Virus record (IMG/VR): IMGVR_UViG_3300049027_000145
Span: 1 to 27,181 of that record
DNA length: 27,181 nt
DNA from: a virus
Reading direction: 5' to 3' (one strand)
Below are positions 22,084-25,490 of the stretch, in pieces (position 1 is the first letter of the stretch; each line of letters opens with the position of its first letter). The notes beneath the pieces are model-generated. The model did not search any database. It saw only the letters and a list, made by a program, of their open reading frames with translations, and was not told the origin of the DNA. Made by a program: the position numbers and the translations under genes.

Positions 22084-22530
22084 ATGGGTTCCACGACGTC
22101 GGCGGGCACTGGGCTCGCCATCTCGGCCGCACTTCCGGCCACCGAAGACGCTGCCGGATACGCCGCGCTGACCTTTGTCGAGATCGGCGGCCCCGAGCAG
22201 TTGGGCGCTTTCGGCGCCTCGAACGAGGTGATTACCTTCCAGCCCCTCAAGGGGCCGGCGGAGAAGCATAAGGGCGGCACCAACTACGGCGCCATCCAGC
22301 CCTCGATCGCGCACGACGACGAGGATGCTGGTCAGACGCTGCTGCGCACCGCCGCCGAGGACCAGACGGACCTGTACGCGTTCGAGATCACCTTCCCGAG
22401 CGGAGCCAAGCGCTACTTTTGCGGTCGTGTCTTCGGCTACCCGGAGAACGTTGGCGCTGCCAACTCGATCATCATGGCGAACCCGTCGATCGAGATCAGC
22501 ACCAAGGTCGTCAAGGTCGACGCTCCCTAA
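22084..22530 (+). CDS. Major tail tube protein
   Basis: A 148-residue protein of the lambda gpV-like phage tail tube family, which polymerises around the tape measure. Typical features are the TFVEIGGPEQLGAFG opening strand, VITFQPLKGPAEKHKGGTNYGA and the FSG-like RVFGYPENVGAANSII loop before the final strand. GGAGAAATGAG precedes the ATG at 22084. Hairpins flank it on both sides. It should be highly expressed. Confidence 0.9.
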   Translation: MGSTTSAGTGLAISAALPATEDAAGYAALTFVEIGGPEQLGAFGASNEVITFQPLKGPAEKHKGGTNYGAIQPSIAHDDEDAGQTLLRTAAEDQTDLYAFEITFPSGAKRYFCGRVFGYPENVGAANSIIMANPSIEISTKVVKVDAP

Positions 22531-22633: not shown

Positions 22634-23056
22634 ATGAAGATCGCAGCACTTGCTGTCGCCACGACGGCGTTCATGCACCTTAAGGGCCCCGATGGCGTTC
22701 CCCTCTATGAGGGCGCGGAAAAGGTGGGCATCGAGCTTTTCGGACCCGGCTCGCAAGAGTTCGCCCAGGTCGAGGAGCGACAGTCGGCCAGGGCACTCCG
22801 GCGCATGCAGGAGAACGACAATAAGATTGCGCTGGCGCCTATCGACACGCGTCGCGCGGAAGCGGCCGAGGACCTGGTCACACTCACTGCACGCTTTCAT
22901 CATATCGAGCACGACGGCCCGGATGGCCGCCCGCTCTCGGGTCTCGATCTGCATTCCGCGGTCTACTCGGACCCGAAGTTCGGTTGGATCAAGGAGCAGG
23001 CCACCAAATTCGTGGGTGATTGGGGAAAGTTCACGCCCGGCTCGGCCGGGAGCTAA
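22634..23056 (+). CDS. Tail assembly chaperone, gpG-like
   Basis: A 140-residue protein in the position of lambda gpG, and of the same length. It contains GPDGVPLYEGAEKVGIELFGPGSQEFAQ and the helical RRMQENDNKIALAP. AAGGAA precedes ATG 22634. Near its end the frame passes through GGGAAAG (23023-23029), the same slippery heptamer used in lambda, and a -1 shift there would join it to the gpT-like frame as a fusion of about 284 residues. It is expected to bind the tape measure and bring tube subunits. Confidence 0.85.
   Translation: MKIAALAVATTAFMHLKGPDGVPLYEGAEKVGIELFGPGSQEFAQVEERQSARALRRMQENDNKIALAPIDTRRAEAAEDLVTLTARFHHIEHDGPDGRPLSGLDLHSAVYSDPKFGWIKEQATKFVGDWGKFTPGSAGS
23023..23050 (+). promoter_or_regulatory. 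Programmed -1 frameshift site (slippery GGGAAAG plus stem-loop)
   Basis: GGGAAAG at 23023-23029 is phased as G-GGA-AAG in the gpG frame, the phase needed for simultaneous -1 slippage onto GGG-AAA. After a 6-nt spacer, CCCGGC (23036-23041) pairs with GCCGGG (23045-23050) around a TCG loop, forming a GC stem at the distance typical of stimulatory structures. The -1 frame is open to 23487. This matches the lambda G/GT arrangement in sequence, phase and position. Confidence 0.85.
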
Positions 23057-23487
23057 TCATCTTTGTTAGGCAGATGGCGTGGCTTGCTGCCACGCCTAAG
23101 CCGCCCGAAGGCTCCCTTCGCGCGAAGAGCCCGGGGCAGGCGCCGACGATCAGTCGGGCCGATCAGATGCGTAAGCAGGGCATCACGCCGCAGATGCCGC
23201 CCAACCCGGCGCCTCATATCGTTACCCGCTTGGTCGAAATCGGCCTGACTGGTTCGAACGGCATGGGGTCAGTGCCGCTCAGCTGGCTGGAAATAAACGA
23301 GTGGCAGCGTGCCACCGCCGTCCGGCTCGCCCCGTGGGAAGCTCGATTGATTCGAGACCTATCTGTCGCCTACCTCGCCGAAAGCAGGAGAGCGGAGAGC
23401 GAGACTTGCCCACCTCCGTGGCGAGCCCAAGTCACGAAGCGCGAGGCTGAGACTGAGGAGGCACGTCTCAGAGCGGTACTTGGCTGA
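23029..23487 (+). CDS. gpT-like tail chaperone extension (made as gpGT by frameshift)
   Basis: The -1 frame entered at 23029 encodes about 152 residues. The central part (TRLVEIGLTGSNGMGSVPLSWLEINEWQ, then LAPWEARLIRDLSVAYLAESR) is a pattern I recognise from the second tail-chaperone domain of Pseudomonas and sphingomonad phages, which recruits tail tube subunits while the G part binds the tape measure. No convincing ribosome binding site precedes the first in-frame ATG at 23074, which favours frameshift expression. A stand-alone start there is the alternative. Confidence 0.8.
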   Translation, partial: VHARLGRELIIFVRQMAWLAATPKPPEGSLRAKSPGQAPTISRADQMRKQGITPQMPPNPAPHIVTRLVEIGLTGSNGMGSVPLSWLEINEWQRATAVRLAPWEARLIRDLSVAYLAESRRAESETCPPPWRAQVTKREAETEEARLRAVLG

Positions 23488-24944: not shown

Positions 24945-25490
24945 ATGGCAGACGAGGAATGGCGGCCGGTTGTCGGCTATGAGGGCCTGTACGAAGTAAG
25001 TTCATTTGGCCGAGTGAGATCACTTGACCGGCACGAGCGCGTCTCACTCCCTTCGGGTGCAGAATACGTCAGACGCCGTCGCGGCCGCTTGCTCGTGATA
25101 CCGCCCGATCACGACGGGTATGCTCACGCTAAGCTATCTCGCGACGGGGTAGTGTCGGGACACGGGGTGCATGCACTCGTTTGCGCAGCGTTTCACGGCC
25201 CCCGGCCTGAAGGAAAGCAGGCAGCCCACAACGACGGCCGGAAGGGCAACAATGCCGCGAGCAACCTTCGCTGGGCGACCCCAACAGAGAACAGTGCCGA
25301 CATGTTGTCGCATGGCACCGTGCTCAACGGGCAGAGAAATCACCTTGCCCGACTCTCGGAGGCTCAGGTGATCGAAATAAGGCGAAAACTTACGACGGCT
25401 GGACCAACGCAAATTGCGCGCGAGTACGGCGTCACTCCAGAGTGCATCATGGCGATAAGATCCGGCCGCACTTGGAAGCATCTACTCTAG
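24945..25490 (+). CDS. Free-standing homing-type HNH endonuclease (NUMOD4-HNH)
   Basis: A 181-residue phage homing endonuclease-like protein. NUMOD4 is at residues 5-28 (EWRPVVGYEGLYEVSSFGRV). The HNH domain follows with H76 (GVHALV) and the AHNDGRKGNN core (H95, N96, D97), then SNLRWATPTEN. The C-terminus (AQVIEIRRKL, then TQIAREYGVTPECIMAIRSGRTW) is a DNA-binding HTH. GGGAGGGG precedes the ATG. Such genes move by cutting intron-less or gene-less homologues. It is immediately followed by an intrinsic terminator. Confidence 0.9.
   Translation: MADEEWRPVVGYEGLYEVSSFGRVRSLDRHERVSLPSGAEYVRRRRGRLLVIPPDHDGYAHAKLSRDGVVSGHGVHALVCAAFHGPRPEGKQAAHNDGRKGNNAASNLRWATPTENSADMLSHGTVLNGQRNHLARLSEAQVIEIRRKLTTAGPTQIAREYGVTPECIMAIRSGRTWKHLL

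Follow-up and report, generated by a model that had tools for sequence, protein, structure and literature searches.

Comparative evidence for programmed -1 ribosomal frameshifting between two tail assembly chaperone genes of a temperate siphovirus

Introduction

Phage lambda produces its gpG and gpGT proteins by a frameshift between genes G and T, in a ratio of roughly 30:1, and this arrangement is widely conserved in long-tailed phages (PMC5009743, citing Levin 1993; Xu 2004, 2013, 2014). When shift-prone tetramers are ranked in E. coli, A_AAG comes first and U_UUY next (PMC4066793). In this study, a 27,181-base IMG/VR virus record, referred to below as the window, was analysed for a comparable signal. 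Among the genes of the window are those for integrase, helicase, primase, terminase, portal, head protease, major head protein and head-tail connectors, as well as the tail completion and major tail proteins, and its source is a temperate siphovirus with known hosts in the Sphingomonadaceae and close kin. Between the major tail protein and tape measure genes lies a pair of overlapping reading frames, termed G and T here, for which a complete lambda-type frameshift cassette had been predicted.

Results

Every feature described here is on the plus strand. The G gene (22634-23056) has an ATG start backed by a Shine-Dalgarno sequence and encodes a gpG-like protein of 140 aa in the zero frame, which ends at the TAA stop at 23054-23056. 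In the frame set by the first base of the ORF (22634), the codons here are TGG GGA AAG; the heptamer at 23023-23029 is accordingly read as G_GGA_AAG, and the slip phase given in the original prediction is correct to the base. The 6-nt spacer (TTCACG, 23030-23035) and the perfect 6-bp GC stem with a TCG loop (CCCGGC-TCG-GCCGGG, 23036-23050), a probable stimulatory hairpin, are likewise present as described. From 23020 onwards the -1 frame has no stop until 23485-23487, and the T domain of 152 aa (23029-23487), which would be read only after slippage, gives a predicted fusion of 132+152 = 284 aa, matching the earlier estimate. The word GGGAAAG is not rare in the window, with four occurrences compared with 3.1 expected in shuffles, and the significance of the heptamer rests on its position, phase and conservation rather than on word rarity.

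The upstream neighbour of G is the major tail (tube) protein gene (22084-22530; phrog_158, 1.5e-19). Downstream, the tape measure gene begins at about 25562 and is cut short by the contig end at 27181 (phrog_24, a weak TMP_2 match and a VanY domain), and its product is the expected partner of the chaperones. Its start lies about 2 kb after T, whereas in the relatives examined a long tape-measure-type open frame begins within about 1.2 kb. A NUMOD4/HNH endonuclease gene and small unknown ORFs occupy 24945-25490, between the chaperone and tape measure genes. The VanY-like D-Ala-D-Ala carboxypeptidase domain covers residues 466-523 of the tape measure protein, near the contig end.

The -1 frame had been described as a gpT-like domain, and residues 76-115 of T indeed match Phage_TAC_18 (PF23812), with 27.9 bits narrowly exceeding the curated cut-off of 27. 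The G protein matched no family in Pfam or NCBIfam, including the lambda gpG/TAC family, and sequence and fold searches of the PDB with it found nothing. Its PHROG matches were scattered and weak, a single one of 47 relatives matching phrog_313 'Tail assembly chaperone' at 3e-4. The structure models of G (pLDDT 91) and T (pLDDT 87) both match the same fused-length phage tape-measure/tail assembly chaperones, namely those of Seurat (A0A0A0RTG6), K1H (D2XJD7), CcrColossus (K4K660) and Sansa (A0A0K1LLW3), with modest E-values of 0.003 to about 1. The agreement of the two halves on one set of proteins supports, at the level of predicted folds, a chaperone identity for G and T.

For comparison, loci were gathered by similarity to the T domain and not by motif, with three more added by G-protein similarity. 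This yielded 117 distinct 300-nt contexts, window included, from Sphingomonadaceae prophages and IMG/VR contigs, the relatives in named genomes belonging to Sphingomonas, Sphingobium, Novosphingobium and kin. Both genes are present in 170 of 172 loci, and T stands in the -1 relation to G in all 170. G was not found in the other two (L034 and L127), which represent one contig region of Sphingomonas sp. LaA6.9 and possibly a decayed prophage. The heptamer does not vary freely among these relatives: an in-phase GGGAAA[C/G/U] occurs in 103 of the 117 contexts, as GGGAAAC in 73, GGGAAAG in 29 and GGGAAAT in one. PF23812 loci in which the frame stays open over a long stretch were also searched for natural in-frame G-T fusions, and those read by eye contained none, the T frame simply continuing beside a separate, overlapping G-type ORF.

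Compact hairpins were counted when starting 4-10 nt after the heptamer. They occur in 75% of loci, compared with 29% under a null model preserving the -1 protein, and are less common elsewhere in the gene; with clustering at 90% identity, 53 of 77 have one vs 21.6 expected. Hairpin starts peak 6 nt after the slip site (46 of the 77 GGGAAA loci having a hairpin), which is the spacing in the window. The hairpin register floats between relatives and MFE z-scores are modest. Against the single-frame synonymous null, hairpins were found in 48 of 72 cases where about 22 were expected, and the expectation rose to 27.9 when the zero-frame stop, Ser and Phe were also kept. With every zero-frame residue kept it reached 45.7, and the difference was not significant. 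Stem conservation in relatives, proposed as a check on the original prediction, was thus found as an excess over the single-frame null and disappeared when both frames were fixed.

The near equality of 45.7 and 48 is what one would expect if the frameshift were real and the hairpin a non-stimulating by-product of GC-rich dual coding. Such a reading is in line with the lack of a comparable hairpin in lambda and with its absence, as a strong compact structure, from 26 of 103 GGGAAA loci, about a quarter of the relatives. However, the both-frames null fixes gpG residues past the slip site that vary freely among relatives; it is over-conditioned and has little power. The excess with only the stop, Ser and Phe fixed and the 6-nt spacing peak also speak against a by-product, as do the loci that carry U_UUY in place of GGGAAA (see below), 12 of 14 of which have a hairpin vs 4.3 expected under the single-frame null. 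A by-product is therefore considered unlikely, if still worth keeping in mind. Selection on the hairpin, as far as sequence comparison can tell, is probable but falls short of proven because the both-frames null shows no excess.

T could instead be a separate protein, made by reinitiation or translational coupling after the gpG stop, in which case no frameshift would be needed. An in-frame ATG at 23071, about 15 nt past the stop and preceded by a weak AGG, could serve such a route. This ATG, the only one nearby, has no Shine-Dalgarno sequence and is replaced by CTG in 27 of 98 relatives. Moreover, conservation of the -1 frame extends upstream of this ATG, with third-position variability indicating codon periodicity, and the first predicted helix of the T domain (residues 2-20) spans it. 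In-frame starts near the junction with a Shine-Dalgarno energy of -5 or better were detected in 4% of loci, compared with 90% for the G start and 17% at random places, as anticipated by the claim that T lacks a good start site; judged by sequence, T has no translation start of its own. A separate T would also leave the GGA conservation and motif swaps described next unexplained, and is regarded as very improbable.

Conservation of the heptamer could also reflect nothing but the peptide Asp-Trp-Gly-Lys/Asn-Phe, which is well conserved. Codon usage already contradicts this: in the comparison of synonymous conservation that had been suggested with the original prediction, GGA encodes the Gly that follows Trp in 98 of 100 cases, vs 29 of the 1,211 other Gly codons (2.4%) of the same genes. 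In four lineages (L126/L039, L167/L028, L029/L114 and L168/L008) the peptide is altered and GGGAAA is still found nearby, at a different codon. In all 14 contexts lacking GGGAAA, the conserved Phe codon coincides with a U_UUY tetramer, in eight cases within A_AAU_UUY; codons ending in T make up only 12% in these genes. The GGA bias, the U_UUY replacements and the moved GGGAAA show that the nucleotide motif is kept and not the peptide, and leave the peptide explanation with next to no probability.

In a quick T-domain tree based on few columns, the U_UUY loci require six state changes, of which at least three are forced by starred branches. The junction of one locus, L137 (GGGAAATTTC), unites the two kinds of shift motif, G_GGA_AAU with A_AAU_UUC, which may make it an evolutionary intermediate. 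It appears rather likely that slip-site turnover recurs within a single orthologous chaperone pair, GGGAAAN having moved by at least one codon in at least four lineages and having given way, in several others, to U_UUY at the next codon downstream, while the frame relation, the fusion and usually a nearby hairpin persist. If true, the turnover would form a natural series of recoding-signal movement without functional loss.

G_GGA_AAC is used by 73 of the 103 relatives with GGGAAA, even though its efficiency in E. coli is low (PMC4066793). The set of host tRNAs may explain this predominance.

A sequencing or assembly error, conceivable since only a single contig was seen to carry exactly this sequence, is refuted as the source of the frame break by the -1 relation in each of the 117 distinct contexts, isolate genomes included, and its probability is negligible. 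Transcriptional slippage was dropped as a candidate, GGGAAAG having no long homopolymer.

Discussion

The comparative evidence strongly supports the original prediction of a programmed -1 frameshift yielding a gpG/gpGT pair, and such a signal in the tail assembly chaperone operon is very probably the correct explanation of the junction. Most ribosomes would stop at the end of the first ORF and produce the gpG-like chaperone. In a minority, the Gly-tRNA and Lys-tRNA paired with GGA AAG would slip to GGG AAA, probably aided by the hairpin 6 nt downstream, and reading would continue in the -1 frame to give the 284-aa gpGT-like fusion. If lambda is a guide, the part shared by both products would coat the tape measure protein, and recruitment of the tail-tube protein would fall to the T extension. 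We infer slippage from what the sequences display, namely phase, reading frames, conservation, codon bias, motif turnover, lack of a start site and gene order; its efficiency, the role of the hairpin and the protein functions are proposed on the same footing.

The first protein falls into no Pfam family, and routine annotation would probably list two unrelated ORFs at such loci. The natural slip-site swaps and hairpin variants offer a test bed for -1 signals outside E. coli, and further interest lies in slip-site turnover within one orthologous family and in the prevalence of G_GGA_AAC despite its low E. coli efficiency.

The label 'lambda-type' is apt as regards mechanism, heptamer and gene order. 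In lambda, gene G (NC_001416, 9711-10133) contains GGGAAAG, as had been claimed, in the same phase and with a zero-frame stop soon after the slip site, and the order tail tube, G, T, tape measure is the same. The first ORF encodes 140 aa in both phages, an equality that is probably coincidence because the relatives differ in length. On the other hand, the first protein in the window has no sequence match to the lambda gpG family, and about 2 kb with an HNH endonuclease gene separate T from the tape measure gene. Nor does the hairpin belong to the lambda cassette, since lambda has no compact GC hairpin by its heptamer (best score 11 vs 18 in the window) and its region folds no better than shuffles. 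The fused chaperones of Seurat, K1H, CcrColossus and Sansa resemble the pair in that the predicted G and T folds each correspond to part of these proteins, which are 259-310 aa long, but identities are 9-18%, E-values are modest and the hosts differ. The Z_ZZN and X_XXZ_ZZN motifs of IS elements, with their downstream stimulators, include GGGAAAG, GGGAAAC and U_UUY as well, but there they lie in other genes and serve transposase expression (PMC4066793). Frameshifting of the gpG/gpGT kind is itself already known, and the locus described here adds another case, in an unannotated chaperone family.
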